From Macrocystis pyrifera (taxonomy: Eukaryota > Sar > Phaeophyceae > Laminariales > Laminariaceae), in NCBI GenBank assembly GCA_031763025.1, contig JASSKH010000019.1, positions 9,464,250 through 9,528,249 of the forward strand: 64,000 nucleotides of DNA, in the 5' to 3' direction. How positions within the stretch are numbered: the stretch's first letter is position 1; every line of letters starts with the position of its first letter. The position numbers were made by a program, and so were the translations under genes. Below are positions 4,780 through 53,005 of the stretch, piece by piece. The notes under the pieces were generated by a model that was not told where the DNA came from, made no database searches, and worked only from the letters and a program-made list of their open reading frames with translations.

Positions 4780-5385
4780 GATCCCCACCGGGTCCCGTGG
4801 ATAACAGCGGGATCCCACGAGCATTTTTTTTCAACCGCGAAACCGTGGGTCACGGTGGGTTCCAGTGGGAATCAACCTCGGTGCCCGGATCGTAATTCCC
4901 GCGGGTACCTGTTCAATACTACAGACGACCCGTGGGGATTGCCGTCAGAATCGATATTGCCCGTTCCCGTGGGAATCACAGCGGGTGCTCCTGGGATACA
5001 ACAGAAGACCATCTGTTTCCAAGAGGTGTTTCGACGTATCCGTGGTTACCCGTGGGAATTCTCGTGGGTGGTCGTCGCATACAGCGCATGTCCGTGGGCG
5101 CCCGTGGGTGTTCCTGCGAAAACAAGGACCTTGGGGATTGTACAGGATTGCCGTGGGTTCGCATTGGTACAAGTTTGTCTCGTGGGCCCCCATGGAAAGT
5201 CTTGCCGGACAGCATCGGAATTGAAGATTGTTCCCGTGGGCTCGTTTGGGCTCCCACTTTCTTGGGCGGACGGTATACGCTGAATGAGCCCGCTATGGTC
5301 TCCGGTGATGCGCAAATGTGTTGGATACGTACAACGTTGGACGCCCACAGGACCTCCCGAAAGAAATTTCGTGGGAACTCGCTTC
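4780..5385. repeat. Cluster of TTCCCGTGGGAA-like palindromes
   Basis: At least ten variants of one short near-palindrome, (TT)CCCGTGGG(AA), occur every 20-60 bp. They sit near 4793, 4849, 4889, 4926, 4962, 5047, 5100, 5150, 5183, 5231 and 5368, and some are doubled. The motif is almost absent from flanking DNA. The overlapping long ORFs in this tract are open because the motif lacks stops and are not supported as genes. The architecture resembles the CCATGGCA tract at 16.2 kb and the TTCCATTTGGAAGT tract at 38.4 kb. Confidence 0.55.
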
Positions 5386-7805: not shown

Positions 7806-8707
7806 TTGGGCGTGTTGAAGTTGACGAACTGGTGGTGTCGTCGCGAGGGTTATCTGAAACAATTTGTACGTACGCATGAGAAACAAACAGTTCATTGCCA
7901 AGTTTTGAAAGTGCAACATCCGGACAGTCTCCATAGCCGTAATTAGTAAAACGTTCGGGTCGGTGCTAGTCGCGCTTAGGTCCCTGTTGCGTTCAGCCGT
8001 TCAGGTTCACTCGGCCTATTGAACACTCTGTTTCGTTATAGTCTTGGAGCTTTTGTACCGTTTTTCTGATACACACCGCCAAGAGCTTATATGTTTCACT
8101 GTGCCAAAGCAGGCACTTTTTCCATGTTTGGTTTGGAATGAAGTTCAGAGCCAATTGCCCAAGCGGCCTGAATGCAGTAGTGAAAACAATGGCAGCATAC
8201 CCCCCCCCCCTACCGTAGTCCGCTGTCTGTAAGCAACCGAACTGTTCTGTTCTCCAAGCCGGGATTGAGCGACAACGATGAAGCAGGGAGATGTGGGCTA
8301 CAAAGCTTTAACTAGTAACCGAGGAAACAGTCTGGTACCACGTTCTAGTCCTAGTACGCAAACCCATAGCCAAACTGAATCGACAACCGAAAGTTCTAAG
8401 GGCGATCAACGATGTGCATGCTGCACACTGTCCACCTAAGCCCGCCGATTTAGTACACGATATGTCCACAAACGCCTCAAATCACATCTTAAGACCTTGC
8501 AGTTGTACAAGTGTTCAACTCCACGTTCTGTAGTACATATTTGCGGCGTGCACCACCTCCTCCAACCGCAATTTCGCTTTGTGCATATAAAACCATATAT
8601 GGGGTCCACCCCTACCAGCAACTTGGTTGTCGACGGCGCGAACCGGAACATAGTAAATAGCATATGGCTAGGAACTAGAAAGCGGTGTTCCCTTCTCTAT
8701 TCGGGTT
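7806..8707. other. No gene recognised
   Basis: Unique-looking DNA with a short C-homopolymer near 8201-8210. Only short ORFs, none with recognisable features. Confidence 0.4.
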
Positions 8708-8818
8708 CTATTACGGGGGCCTATAGTTAACAGGACCTATGGCATACATAAAAACCTATATATTTAGGTATTTTTGCTAACAATATTTGGTCCTGTTAAC
8801 TATGGACCCCCGTAATAG
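8708..8818. mobile_element. TA-flanked miniature inverted-repeat element, copy 1
   Basis: A 111-bp unit with near-perfect terminal inverted repeats of about 30 bp. The left end CTATTACGGGGG, followed by ATAGTTAACAGGACC, mirrors the right end GGTCCTGTTAACTATGG then CCCCCGTAATAG. The core is AT-rich. The termini begin and end with TA, consistent with a TA target as used by Tc1/mariner-type transposases, which is an inference. Two further copies lie at 15920 and 17491. No transposase is encoded. Confidence 0.8.
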
Positions 8819-15919: not shown

Positions 15920-16031
15920 CTATTTACGGGGGACCATAGTAAATAGAACCTAATATTGTGACTCAGAAGAAGCAAATATGTAGTATTTTGTGTATACCCT
16001 AGGTCCTGTATAATATGGCCCCCCGTAATAG
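15920..16031. mobile_element. TA-flanked miniature inverted-repeat element, copy 2
   Basis: 112 bp. The left end CTATTTACGGGGG with CCATAGTAAATAGAACC pairs with the right end AGGTCCTGTATAATATGG and CCCCCCGTAATAG. It belongs to the same family as 8708-8818, with more mismatches between its arms, and sits at the end of LINE copy A. Confidence 0.75.
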
Positions 16032-16184
16032 TGCACAGTTTCGTATCGTACACGAAGAACCTCAACCATTGAGGCGACAAAAATACTCGCTACACCTCCA
16101 TTCACAGATGAGCAGACAGCGCCGCGCATCCGCCGTGGGTAGTGTCCAAGGGAACGGAACAGGGTTCTACACTATTTGACCTTG

Positions 16185-16400
16185 TCGTGGGCATGCCGTG
16201 GCATTGCCATGGTACCGCCCATGGCATACCATGGCATCACCACGGCATACCATGGTGTGGCAATAGATTCCATGGCACGCCGTGGGGGTTGCCATGACAT
16301 GCCATGGGTAGTACCATGGCAACCCCCGCAGCTACCGCCACGGCGCTCCATGGCAACCCCACGGAATGTCATGGCAACCCCAACGGTACCCCAATGTCCT
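16185..16400. repeat. CCATGGCA palindrome tract
   Basis: Dense variants of TGCCATGGCA, ACCATGGCAT and CCACGGCAT recur every 10-25 bp across about 215 bp, forming the left arm of the hAT-like element. The other copy (22.9 kb) has shorter, simpler arms, so this arm has probably grown by local duplication. Confidence 0.65.
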
Positions 16401-16408
16401 CGGCACCT

Positions 16409-16480
16409 AGGTTAGGGTTAGGGGTTTGGGGTTAGGGTTAGGGTTAGGGTTAGGGTGAGGGTTAGGGTTAGGGTTAAGGT
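16409..16480 (+). repeat. Interstitial TTAGGG array
   Basis: About eleven hexamers of TTAGGG on the plus strand, with a few variants (TTAGGGG, TTTGGGG, GTGAGGG, TTAAGG). The repeat lies inside a transposon-like element rather than at a chromosome end. Confidence 0.85.
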
Positions 16481-17354
16481 CCCATGGTATACCGTGGAGG
16501 TCCGTGGAGAGTTCCGTGGTATGCCGTGGAAAATTTTGCCGCAGGTGGTGCCACGGCATGCCACGGCATTATTGCGAAAAAAGACAATAATGTACATACC
16601 TCGAACGGAAGGAGGGGGGGCAACAGGAGGTGTGGTACAAAACCCGACCAAGGGAATGCGGAGAGGGGGGGGGGGCAGGAGTAAAAGGCAAACTGCAGTG
16701 GACGAAAGTAGGAAGGAGATGGCAGACAGGGTAGCCAGGTACCGGGCAGACTAGGAAGTAGAACATGTCTATACTACTCGTACCACCAACTGGTGCAGCT
16801 GGTGTGACCGTGGTCTTCCTTTGTCTTCTTTTTTCAATTATGTTTTGCGCTGATCTTCTGTGATTTTCCTTGTATTTCTTTCTCTTCCTTCCCTAAATTG
16901 ATAAGCCTTATTGAATGAGTCGTGTGGCGTGGGTGGATAACGAGCCTGCTTTGCTTGTTTCGTATTGTCTGACGCCGAGAGGCCGGACATAGTAGACGAT
17001 TGCTGGACGGAGGCGGCAGACAGGGTAGCAAAGAACCAGGCGGACCAGCAGGGAGAACCTGGCTGTGCTACTCGTACCACAAACTGCTGCCGCTACCTGG
17101 AGTATGCTTTGTGCTATAGTTAGCCTGTCATTTTTCCCTTGGTTCTTCGTCTAATCTGTTTACAAAAAGTGGTGTTTTTTTTTCCTTTTCCTTTATGTTT
17201 GCAGCACGTTCTGTTCAAGTGTCTGCCACATCCCCCGCGGGGGGGGCACCACAGTTTGTTTCCGATGTACATATTTTTCTTCTATCTTTTTCTCTTTCTA
17301 CTTGTCTTTTTTGTTTTTGATTTCTTTGTTTGTTTCGTTTCGTTTCTCTATTTC

Positions 17355-17495
17355 ATGGAATGTGTATGTTGTGCCTGTCATATCCAGTACGATGGCATGT
17401 CTTTGCATTGCCCACTGTGCTTATACTGCATACGTGGCAACGTAGTATCTCTGTGGCGTAGCTTTGTGACCACAGAACTTGGATACCTTCTATAA
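17355..17495 (+). CDS. LINE 3' mini-ORF, Cys-rich (copy B)
   Basis: Starts with ATG at 17355 and encodes 46 residues beginning MECVCCACHIQYDGMSLHC. Further cysteines (CPLC, then C) could form a small zinc-binding knuckle, but no family is recognised. The equivalent ORF is open in LINE copies C (29993-30112) and D (35636-35755, where ATG has become ACG) and, for the part present, in inverted copy E. In this copy the last codons and the stop lie at the edge of the inserted miniature element at 17491. Whether it is translated is unknown. Confidence 0.4.
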   Translation: MECVCCACHIQYDGMSLHCPLCLYCIRGNVVSLWRSFVTTELGYLL

Positions 17496-17599
17496 GGGGG
17501 GTCCATTGTTAACGGGACCAAATTTTGTTAGTAAAAAAAGGTAAATATAAAGTTTTTTATGTATACCATAAGTCTTATTAACTATGCACCCCCGTAATA
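17491..17599. mobile_element. TA-flanked miniature inverted-repeat element, copy 3
   Basis: 109 bp inserted in the 3' end of LINE copy B, between the CACAGAACTT block and the GAAGAATCGGCACGG block that are contiguous in copy C. Left end TATAAGGGGGG, then CCATTGTTAACGGGACC. Right end ATTAACTATGCACCCCCGTAATA. The termini carry TA, as in the other copies. Confidence 0.75.
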
Positions 17600-18004
17600 G
17601 GATTGAAGAATCGGCACGGACACTGGTTGTGCTGGATGTCGACGGCTACGCGTAGAAAGAACGGTTTAATGTGAAAACACACACACATTGAGATCGACCA
17701 GAATATCACGGACATTCTGATACAAATTGGCGAAGTGGGAGAACTTCGTTTGATAATCCGCTCAGCCGGGAACACACGCACGCGAGAAAGCCCACACGCA
17801 CTTGAGCAAATGTGTAATTTTCTGTTTTTTTTTTTCCGCTTATCCCATGTATATTGTCACATTCAAGCTTCTTCTCATTCATTATCACTCCCTATTATTA
17901 ATAATGTCAGTAGTCGACACTAAAATCGCGGGTCAAAAAGCAGGCCCTTCTCTCCCTTGCTCAGTGTGTGGGTGTGTTCTTTGCAATAGAGCGTTCTTAT
18001 TATC

Positions 18005-22726: not shown

Positions 22727-22941
22727 CACAGAGTAGACCCCCCGCTTCGCGTCAGAAACTTACCTAGCGGGCGCAAGCCCAATTATTCATCAATAATAGC
22801 CTCTTAATTAAACCCGACGAGCACCGACAAGGATACGGCTTCGCTGAGAAGGTTGACTACCGCATCCCCGTCGCTGCTGCCTGCGTCGCAGGGATGTACA
22901 TTATTGTCATTTTTTGCCGTGGCACGACCTGCGGCAAAACA

Positions 22942-22987
22942 TTAGGGTTGGGGTTAGGGTTAGGGTTAGGGTTAGGGTTAGGGTTAG
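22942..22987 (+). repeat. Interstitial TTAGGG array
   Basis: About seven TTAGGG hexamers (one TTGGGG variant) between two copies of the left arm of the hAT-like element. Confidence 0.85.
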
Positions 22988-23071
22988 GCAGGGATGTACA
23001 TTATTGTCTTTTTTCGGTGGCACCACCTGCGGCAAAACCTTCCACGGCATACCACCGAACCTTCCACGGAC

Positions 23072-23112
23072 TAGGTTAGGGTTAAGGTTAGGGTTAGGGT
23101 TAGGGTTAGGGT
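23072..23112 (+). repeat. Interstitial TTAGGG array
   Basis: About six TTAGGG hexamers with one TTAAGG variant, forming the loop between the paired arms of the hAT-like element. Confidence 0.85.
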
Positions 23113-23220
23113 CCCATGGTATGCTGTGGAAGTCCGTGGAAGGTTCCGTGGTATGCCGTGGAAGGTTTTGCCGCAGGTGGTGCCACGGCATGTCGCGAAA
23201 AATGACAATAAACTGCGTCG

Positions 23221-27682: not shown

Positions 27683-29343
27683 GTGTGTGAGCGACCATCG
27701 GGGTGTAAGAAATTGAAATTGGTGTTTGTATGCAGCAACCGGGGCATCCGACAAGACTTCTGCGAGACCAAGGAATTACTCCCGGAGGAACAGTGTGGCT
27801 TCCGCCCCGCACAATCAACGATTGATATGATGTTCGTCGTGCGCCGGTTGCAAGAGCTTGGAAGACAGAGGAAAATCCCCCTGTACTTGTGCTTCATCGA
27901 TCTGCAGAAAGCGTACGACTCTGTCGACCGAGAGCTGTTATGGGAAGTACTCACACGTTTTGGCGTACCAACCAAGATGCTCAGAATTATCCGTAATTTC
28001 CACGATGGCATGCGGGCTCGCGTGCGTACGGATTACGGCGAGCACTCGGAGTGGTTTGATGTCACGCAGGGGCTGCGGCAAGGCTGTGTGCTGTCACCGT
28101 TACTGTTCAACGTATTTTTCGCTGCTGCGTTGCACGTCGTGCTAGTACGCTTTAGCCATGACGAAGCCATCGTAAGGGATTTGGTCCAACTCAGTGATGC
28201 TGGAGTAGTCGGAACGAAGGAGCAGGAGCCGATAGCGTGCGTGCGAAGGGCTGTGTGGGGCAGGTTGTACGCCGATGACCCAGGGATTGTCTGGAAGTCG
28301 GCTGAAGGGCTCGCGAAAATGATGACAGTCATCGTGACTGTCTTCGAAGCAGCAGGCCTTACGGTGTCGGAAAAGAAGACAGAGACTATGCTTCTACAAA
28401 CGCCAGACCAGAAAACCCTCGCACCACCGCTCGTTATCGAAGCAGCAGGCCAGAGGTATAAGCAGACGGCCCAGTTCTTGTACCTTGGCGGCGTTATCCA
28501 CGAAAATGCTTACCTCTCGCTCGAAATCGACCGACGGATCCGTCTCATGCGAGCATGCCTCAAACGGTTCGGCCCGGAGCTCTATGATAGGACGACCGCC
28601 CCCCGTAGCCTGAAAGTCCGAATGCTGAAGGCCGAGGTGATTGAGACCCTGCTCTACGTGTGTGTGACGTGGACCCTCAGAGCGGAACACTTTGCCAAGC
28701 TTCGAACGGCTCACCACCAAGTTCTGTTGCGAGTCATTGGCTTCCAGCGCCGACTTCGTACTGACCATGCCACCCTCTCGTACGCGAAGGCCCTAAAGAT
28801 GACACGTTGCGAGAGCATCGAAACGACCATCCGCAAACGGCGTCTCTTCTTCGCGGGGGGGTGGCACGGCAAAGCAACGATCGATTACCCAGCCGGGTGA
28901 TGTTCAGGACGATTGCTGGTGGGGAGAACCCGAGACCTGGCGGACAGGTTAAGACTTGGCATGGATGCGTAGTCGAAGACCTTAGGGAGTTCCGCGCCAC
29001 CGAAGGGTCAACGGAACTTGCTCCCTTGGTGTTTGGAGTTGAGACCGCACTGTGGCCCACTGCTGTAAAAAAGGCGGGAAAGTGGTACCGGGGGATCCTC
29101 GAATCAGCCGAACGGTTCATGGTGAGGTGGTACGAGGCTGAGGCTGAGCTGAGCAGGAATCGCCGCGCATCCGCCGTGGGTGGTGTCCAAGGGAATGGGG
29201 GGAGGAGGGGCAACAAGAGGAGTAGCAGAAAACCCGACCAAGGGAATGCGGAGAGGGGGGGGAAGAGGAGTCGAAGGGAAACTGCAGTGAACGAAAGTAG
29301 GAAGGAGATGGCAGATAGGGTAGCCAGGTACCGGGCAGACTAA
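27683..29343 (+). pseudogene. Non-LTR reverse transcriptase (ORF2), truncated and frameshifted
   Basis: The ORF 27683-28900 shows [10 protein letters not shown] (about residue 37), motif [13 protein letters not shown] (about residue 71), motif [15 protein letters not shown] (about residue 129) and the catalytic YADD at residue 196, so the active-site residues are intact. The ORF stops at 28900 because of a run of seven G at 28855-28861. The next frame resumes at once and runs to 29343, giving the C-terminal region whose end, SRKEMADRVARYRAD, is also seen in copy B. One G too many or too few explains the break. RNA-directed DNA synthesis at the target site is the family role. The 5' end is truncated and no endonuclease is present. 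The clade was not assigned. Confidence 0.85.
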
Positions 29344-34500: not shown

Positions 34501-35190
34501 TAGTCATAAAGCCGTGTTATCACAGCACCGGTACTAATAGCTCCGTCGCACCAGCGGTGGCGCACTTGCTCCGCATCCGAGGCCACACGGCCAAAGGGAA
34601 AGCGACACCACACTAACTACCCCCCTCCATCGTGTCACAGTTGAATGTATACAAACCATTGATGGTTTGTCGCGCATGGTTCTTTCTTTCATTTCCTTGC
34701 ATTCTTCATAAACGCTCTTTTTTCACTTCGTCGGTTTTTATTGTTGTGTACAGCAAGCAGTCGTATTTATCTGTACAGGGATTGTACCTGCATCATGGGC
34801 ATCGCAATCGTGGTCCTTAACTCACTGTCAACCGGTCGGTGATCTCCTCACGAACGAGTGTGCATTGCGATGTAATATTATACTGCTGTACCAGGTATAT
34901 CCGTTTCTTACTTTATGGCCCCACGCACGGAACTCCATCTCCTGAAGATGAATAACATTAAAGACGGGCCCCGGGTGTGCGGCACGTTGACGGGTAGAAG
35001 AACTAGTTTGTTTTCCTTGTGAAAAACACGCACAACCTTCTTCAGACGGATGTAGAAAAGCGCTTGCTTTACAACAGCAGCAGCACTCTTTATGTAGCAG
35101 GTACCCTACGTACTTAACGCGACATCAGTCATGATTCTCCAATTTCGGCTCAGACGGGCGGCTAATTGCGACGTCAACGTTGAGCATTGA
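31578..35190. other. No gene recognised
   Basis: 3.6 kb of mostly unique DNA. Minor items are a CTG/CAG-rich run at about 32597-32620 and a GTTGCAGCTGCAAC palindrome near 32533. ORFs reach at most about 148 codons (31618-32064 plus), without recognisable domains, and antisense ORFs overlap them. Confidence 0.4.
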
Positions 35191-52414: not shown

Positions 52415-53005
52415 GTCCGTGGCAAGTGCTACAACTGCCGCCTGACGGACTCCACCACCAAAGACGGAGACATCGTCATCAAGCGCAAAAAGACTCCCTT
52501 CCATTTCGCCTGCTCCAGGGCTTCGCGGAATTCCGAAGCAGTACGCCAAGCAGATTGTTGCCATCCAGGACGAACGAAAGGAAACAAATTGTTTCCCACA
52601 TTTCCCAAAATCACGATTATTTCTTCCTACACATATCCAACGGGTTCAACAGCGAACAGATCCACATTCTGGGCCTCCCGCCTCGTTACTACAGCGTCCT
52701 GGAAGACTATTTACATATATATCATGTCTCATCCAAACTCCTATGCTGGCTACATCGAAATCGCGGCCGCCCAGCAACTATACAACATTTCCATAACCGT
52801 TGTCGTTGCCGGCACTGCTGCTTTCTCTCCTGTCCCAAACCTTCCTGCTTCCTTTAAACAACAGCCTGTATGTTGTATATCATCCACATGCCAAGCACTA
52901 CTCCACTCTCTCCCCACACTGATGAAATATGTTATTCTTATTATTAGACGAATGTCATTCTTACTCTTGCGTCACCCGATCTTACGTTTCACATTACATT
53001 CATAA
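52415..53005 (+). CDS. Candidate exon with CX2CX21HX2C motif
   Basis: Following an acceptor-like TTTACTTCGACCAG (AG at 52413-52414), the frame is open to the stop at 53005. It begins VRGKCYNCRLTDSTTKDGD and continues to TPFHFACSRASRN. The spacing C-x2-C-x21-H-x2-C would suit a single zinc-binding finger. The rest is Ser/Thr-rich, with NRS and NIS sequons and a hydrophobic patch, and may be non-coding read-through. If joined to the exon ending at 50317, the phase does not match as read, so the gene model is unresolved or broken. Confidence 0.35.
   Translation, partial: VRGKCYNCRLTDSTTKDGDIVIKRKKTPFHFACSRASRNSEAVRQADCCHPGRTKGNKLFPTFPKITIISSYTYPTGSTANRSTFWASRLVTTASWKTIYIYIMSHPNSYAGYIEIAAAQQLYNISITVVVAGTAAFSPVPNLPASFKQQPVCCISSTCQALLHSLPTLMKYVILIIRRMSFLLLRHPILRFTLHS

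Follow-up and report, generated by a model that had tools for sequence, protein, structure and literature searches.

In the 64,000-nucleotide stretch of the genome of the giant kelp Macrocystis pyrifera that was analyzed here (contig JASSKH010000019.1, positions 9,464,250 to 9,528,249 of the forward strand; hereinafter, the window), the 3' part of a LINE is interrupted by a 443-bp insertion, element 1 (16160-16602), that harbors an array of TTAGGG repeats between two arms and is flanked by an exact 8-bp duplication. In 10 open frames of the window, a Pfam search detected the LINE reverse transcriptase and nothing else. Element 1 and its site consist of the following features.

16152..16159 (no strand): left copy of the target-site duplication, GAACGGAA
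16160..16602 (+): element 1, a gene-less DNA element of 443 bp ("subfamily A", our own label), delineated by comparison with the LINE empty site and by at least 41 main genome matches
16160..16180 (+): left end, CAGGGTTCTACACTATTTGAC, the first 13 bases of which, CAGGGTT[C/T]TACAC, are intact in 40/40 examined copies
16160..16408 (+): left arm, about 249 bp, with CCATGG/CCACGG motifs, internally self-complementary, nearly identical across 40 copies
16409..16480 (+, approximate limits): telomeric core, (TTAGGG)n, with the G-rich strand toward the right end; its length varies between copies, and the host telomere motif is also TTAGGG
16481..16602 (+): right arm, 122 bp, 84.6% identical to that of element 2 (see below) over 149 bp that take in part of the core
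16583..16602 (+): right end, GACAATAATGTACATACCTC (reverse complement, read inward: GAGGTATGTACATTATTGTC), off consensus without a duplication in 16/36 independent insertions
16603..16610 (no strand): right copy of the target-site duplication, GAACGGAA
29150..29260 (+): uninterrupted LINE copy, the empty site of element 1

The flanks of element 1, joined with a single copy of the duplication, can be aligned with the LINE copy at about 29.15-29.26 kb without any gap at the site of insertion. The original prediction of a 443-bp unit that interrupts a LINE and has an exact 8-bp target duplication was thus correct in both coordinates and sequence, and the (TTAGGG)n interior between CCATGG/CCGTGG-rich arms was borne out as well, with the array located at about 16409-16480. 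The accompanying description of the termini requires correction, in that only the left end is of the CAGGG type: the right terminus is GAGGT, the inverted repeat is imperfect, and TGTACATTATTGTC is confined to the right end, the left end being TTCTACACTATTTGAC. In single strand form, element 1 folds better than 100 dinucleotide shuffles, with a z-score of -7.0.

Several other sequences in the window deserve a brief mention. Inspection by eye shows three occurrences of a different family of short inverted repeats, with ends of the ACGGGGG...CCCCCGTAAT type, at about 8700-8815, 15920-16030 and 17495-17600, and the region at about 4790-5240 contains dense CCCGTGGG motifs, with no blastn match to either of the two elements. 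A search with window positions 27683-28897 retrieved a reverse transcriptase fragment (P0012) that is filed under a Luteolibacter MAG and matches the kelp LINE at 96% over 57% of the query; the fragment is probably algal DNA in a bacterial MAG.

Copies of the element in the kelp genome

A DNA search of the kelp's own genome (an assembly of 537,376,219 bp in 223 contigs) with element 1 as the query, in which the best 40 of 1338 candidates were scored, yielded, besides internal inverted matches, at least 41 main matches on 24 contigs. All but one of these 41 span about 430 or more of the 443 query positions, the exception being C207:8378616, which spans positions 1-327. Because only 40 of the 1338 candidates were scored, the sample is skewed toward the copies most similar to element 1, so that it may lack copies that are extensively truncated at one end or the other. 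We examined 40 of the 41 matches (L001-L030, where L001 is element 1, and one copy in each of L039-L048); the match left out, C189:4336699, starts at query position 4 and adjoins another copy, and may represent one left end that is cut. The family displays the features of a MITE, being short, gene-less, capable of folding back (the z-score of -7.0 given above), present in at least 41 main matches and showing 0-1.6% substitutions in the left arms.

The left end, CAGGGTT[C/T]TACAC, is common to all 40 copies, and so is the orientation of the core, with the G-rich strand toward the right end. The substitutions in the left arms relative to the consensus have a median of 0.0% and a maximum of 1.6% (40 copies, indels not counted), and because these arms hardly differ, the sampled copies appear to be young. 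The telomeric core, on the other hand, ranges from 32 to 164 bp among the 39 copies in which it could be measured, and contains 4 to 10 intact TTAGGG units per element (30 copies).

An exact 8-bp duplication flush with both ends is present in 13 of the 38 copies with a readable right end, compared to a total of 3 matches for an 8-bp repeat at 24 other offsets (-12 to +12) in the same 38 copies, so the duplication is beyond chance. Since the duplications, where present, are exactly 8 bp long and flush, retroposition, with a fixed 3' end and a variable 5' end, was rejected. Two groups of copies, L015/L019 and L042/L044/L046/L047, have identical left flanks over 100 bp, and collapsing these groups reduces the 40 copies to 36 independent insertions, which fall into three classes. 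The duplication is present in 12 of them (L001, L003, L005, L006, L010, L015/19, L016, L021, L024, L028, L029 and L030; L006 has one substitution in the right end but a flush duplication and was therefore counted here). In eight others, the right end is whole but the duplication is missing (L002, L004, L013, L017, L022, L025, L041 and L043). The remaining 16 lack the duplication as well, and their right ends cease to match the consensus 1-11 bp short of the terminus (L007, L008, L009, L011, L012, L014, L018, L020, L023, L026, L027, L039, L040, the L042 group, L045 and L048); in this class, the CAG tract around L026 makes it impossible to tell whether a duplication is present, and L039 adjoins a second copy. 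Thus, the expectation that the copies would share both their termini and 8-bp duplications was justified with respect to the left terminus, found in 40/40 copies, but not with respect to the duplication, which is missing in 24/36 independent insertions.

The damage is one-sided: altered right ends number 16 against 0 altered left ends among the 36 insertions (two-sided sign test, about 3e-5; 1.5e-5 with the 17 uncollapsed right-end rows). Decay of the sequence as the source of the missing duplications was rejected for this sample because the examined copies are almost identical (left arms, median 0.0%, maximum 1.6%). Since the junctions without a duplication in such near-identical copies cannot be old decay, they point to a frequent, one-sided failure of the right end.

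A different explanation for the copies without a duplication invokes later, unrelated deletions, insertions and segmental duplications that happened to break at the right end. The L042 group is compatible with this scenario: the four copies L042, L044, L046 and L047 have a common left flank (100 bp, 100%) and differing right junctions, with about 1.4 kb inserted at the right end of the element in L046, and with L047 stopping at the boundary of a 1023-bp duplicate. Because the former carries an independent insertion of 1.4 kb and the latter is an incomplete duplicate, L046 and L047 were rejected as further right-end breaks and collapsed with L042 and L044. In C207:8364800-8368800 (L108) and 8377200-8383300 (L109), a single insertion is present in triplicate within about 15 kb, the duplicates being 100% identical and one copy having about 1.4 kb inserted in the right end of the element. 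This cluster is a reminder that right junctions can also be changed by subsequent insertions and duplications. Nevertheless, later events leave unexplained why 16/36 right ends but 0 left ends are off consensus in near-identical copies, and we consider this account of the copies lacking a duplication unlikely.

In one region (L039, C189:4335766-4337621), two copies abut in head-to-tail orientation, and what seems to be a left-end fragment in inverted orientation adjoins the first of these; this arrangement suggests nested or repeated insertion.

Filled and empty sites

The flanks of 38 copies were compared with paralogous sequences in the window, so that the empty sites discussed here are paralogues and not alleles. 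Three copies with a duplication, L001 (element 1), L016 and L024, have clean empty sites, in which the two flanks overlap by exactly 8 bp; the sites of the latter two are located in the window as follows.

35020..35027 (no strand): paralogous empty site of copy L016, duplication GTTTTTCA
52459..52466 (no strand): paralogous empty site of copy L024, duplication CGTCTTTG

In three copies without a duplication, L004, L018 and L040, both flanks lie in the LINE, at 90-96% identity, and 677, about 166 and 158 bp of the LINE, respectively, are missing between them, although, given that the empty sites are paralogues rather than alleles, the loss could predate the insertion. The apparent loss of 677 bp at L043 is weak evidence in that the right flank matches over 48 bp only and the left flank at 78%. 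Nor is the comparison with the paralogue clear for the L042 group, in which some bases at the junction do not align, or for L026, which is in a repeat tract. For L008, L023 and L027, there is a window paralogue at one junction only, so these copies carry no information on the loss of flanking DNA.

A second element with tandem left ends

Another element of this kind, element 2, is present in the window.

22881..22888 (no strand): 8-bp repeat left of element 2, CTGCGTCG
22889..23212 (+): element 2 ("subfamily B", our own label), with the left end CAGGGATGTACATTATTGTC occurring twice (22889, 22989) and the right terminus stopping at GACAATAAA
23213..23220 (no strand): 8-bp repeat right of element 2, CTGCGTCG

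Element 2 contains two TTAGGG arrays, at about 22942-22988 and 23071-23112, followed by the right arm that extends up to 23212; in other words, the left ends and the arrays are in tandem but there is a single right arm and one outer pair of 8-bp repeats. The inner unit, 22989-23212, folds back strongly on itself, and the telomere array forms the loop (z-score of -18.25 against dinucleotide shuffles). This organization could have originated either by insertion into a core or by template switching. The combination of a shortened right end with an 8-bp repeat is not predicted by a simple deletion model. A further copy of the element 2 type, starting at position 65 of L049, has the same whole left end and a right end cut after GACAATAAT; inspection by eye revealed no flanking duplication.

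Telomeres and chromosome ends

We inspected 28 scaffold ends, 500 or 2500 bp each, from 14 contigs. Seven of the 28 carry three or more TTAGGG/CCCTAA units that reach or start at the contig end, from which we conclude that TTAGGG is the telomere motif of the host; the arms of the element were detected in none of the 28. In the right end of C222 (L038 1455-2500, L055), a subtelomeric 30-bp satellite, TGACCATACTAAAATCAAGTCATTTCAACA, adjoins the terminal TTAGGG repeats, and a TTAGGG array of about 109 bp is located inside the satellite; the right end of C192 shows a satellite sequence resembling this one.

That the TTAGGG repeats are those of the host telomere would also be expected of an ordinary interstitial telomeric sequence, left by break repair or chromosome fusion between chance flanks, and insertion of telomeric repeats during break repair has indeed been described in primates and rodents (PMC7215372). 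For the element described here, this origin appears extremely improbable: the whole unit, including the arms, recurs at 40 sites with a fixed left end, at 13 of these with flush 8-bp duplications, and the arms are absent from the inspected scaffold ends. With at least 41 genome matches in addition, an origin from a chromosome fusion or a telomere end was rejected for the family. The original prediction was that of a cut-and-paste miniature element that brings telomere repeats to interior sites, as opposed to junctions seen only at chromosome ends, and it is supported by the left end (40/40 copies), the duplications (12/36 insertions), the at least 41 matches on 24 contigs and the arms at 0/28 scaffold ends.

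Which transposase?

The assignment of the element to the hAT superfamily is based on the length of the duplication, the form of the left terminus and the large number of hAT genes in the genome. The consensus of hAT termini is YARNG, and the CAGGG left end fits it. A search for the hAT dimerization domain, PF05699, gave at least 150 matches in the kelp genome, all above the cut-off (150 of 317 candidates scored), and matches in 0/14 control genomes. However, the autonomous hAT transposase enclosed by the same ends, which had been sought as the partner, was not found in 38 hAT domain regions with about 0.9-3 kb on each side. In these regions, no sequence came within 4 mismatches of any of the three end sequences (the best had 5); CAGNG end pairs flanked by exact 8-bp duplications were likewise absent, as were matches to the arms. 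The 38 regions comprise 30 from the PF05699 search and 8 more, mostly with long open frames; ends farther out would escape. Because these domain regions lack such ends, the membership of the family in the hAT superfamily is plausible but unproven. Copy L009 has a hAT domain (C189:3149687-3149869, within an open frame of 394 aa) at a distance of about 2.4 kb; since the surrounding stretch, L100 (C189:3146700-3154183), contains no matching ends, this proximity may be due to chance.

The target preference of the hAT transposon Hermes has been reported as nTnnnnAn (PMC10368747). This pattern is absent from the 13 duplications available for comparison (12 and that of element 2), which have T at position 2 in 4/13 cases and A at position 7 in 3/13. 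The pattern is not known to define the hAT superfamily in general. Duplications of 8 bp are also generated by P, Merlin, Novosib or similar superfamilies, and the same telomere-carrying miniature transposon could have been mobilized by one of these. Such an assignment would agree with the departure of the duplications from the Hermes pattern, with a right terminus that is not CAGGG and with the failure to find a hAT gene bounded by these ends in the 38 domain regions; on the opposite side are the fit of the CAGGG left end to YARNG and the abundance of hAT transposase domains in a genome search that covered PF05699. On balance, we regard a superfamily other than hAT as unlikely. As far as the original prediction of a hAT-like element is concerned, the 8-bp duplication, the left terminus and the abundant hAT domains favor it, and the GAGGT right end, the lack of nTnnnnAn and the domain regions without these ends do not.

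A proposed model of the element and its right end

Taken together, these observations are best explained by a young family of gene-less DNA transposons, most likely hAT, that are moved in trans, carry a telomeric core as a passenger and have a right end that is mis-processed, an interpretation to which we assign a probability of roughly 70%. Under this model, an ancestor of the family would have taken up the host telomere repeat between two arms, and the repeat would have remained a passenger whose length changes from copy to copy, whereas a transposase encoded elsewhere, presumably of the hAT type, would act in trans. About one-third of the examined insertions would stem from normal cut-and-paste, with an 8-bp duplication and both ends whole; in the remaining insertions, the left end would be processed precisely and the right end cut or joined abnormally. 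Host end joining could then close the gap, with up to about 11 bp of the end trimmed and, where this can be checked, flanks losing up to hundreds of base pairs. The failure of the right end might occur either during insertion or subsequently, through one-ended cutting. Its cause might be a weak right end (GAGGT, not CAGGG). Unequal transposon ends have a precedent in Hermes, in the octamer of which the left end is reportedly bound through BED domains and the right end without any (PMC10368747).

One may further speculate that the element is a portable telomere seed, with the passenger core kept because it rescues breaks from the faulty right end. The TTAGGG strand points toward the right end in 40/40 copies, the same end at which DNA is lost, and a right-end break would leave a stump with a correctly oriented repeat about 120 bp away, which telomerase or telomere proteins could heal or protect. 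There is no healed chromosome end among the 28 scaffold ends inspected, and we deem this possibility highly improbable.

Relation to known elements and implications

Short elements that contain no gene, have a CAGGG-type left end, generate 8-bp duplications and are moved in trans are known among hAT-type MITEs and Ds-like elements. The kelp element resembles these in its shortness, the absence of a gene, the CAGGG-type left end and the 8-bp duplications, but differs in the core of host telomere repeats, the unequal ends and, in most of the examined insertions, the missing duplication and the damage on the right side. The maize Ds elements themselves are reported to be heterogeneous, with 11-bp terminal repeats (PMC3260210). 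Tandem repeats riding in a miniature element are not unique to the kelp, the reviewed examples (PMC6947457) including a Xenopus MITE with Xstir and insect MITEs with (GTCY)n; in those cases, however, the passenger is a satellite or microsatellite, whereas in the kelp it is the host telomere motif. In another brown alga, Ectocarpus, the telomere motif is likewise embedded in another repeat, a subtelomeric satellite described as an approximately 98-bp tandem repeat found almost only at subtelomeres (PMC11541908); unlike this tandem, subtelomeric array, the kelp element is a dispersed transposon with target duplications. A literature search with most subscription journals outside its coverage turned up no report of a telomere-carrying MITE or hAT element, and the main text of the giant kelp genome paper (PMC10498591) has no word starting with 'telomer' or 'hat'. 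Pattern searches of the viral_contigs and genome_contigs collections and a blastn search against phages produced no match, which says little about relatives elsewhere because these collections are described as viral or prokaryotic.

Interstitial telomeric sequences are commonly interpreted as scars of chromosome fusion or break repair, and a young transposon would be a third, directly testable source of such sequences. A transposon that distributes telomere repeats could mislead the inference of chromosome fusions as well as telomere FISH in kelps. Furthermore, the one-sided, imprecise junctions in near-identical copies amount to a natural experiment on transposon ends that are handled unequally.
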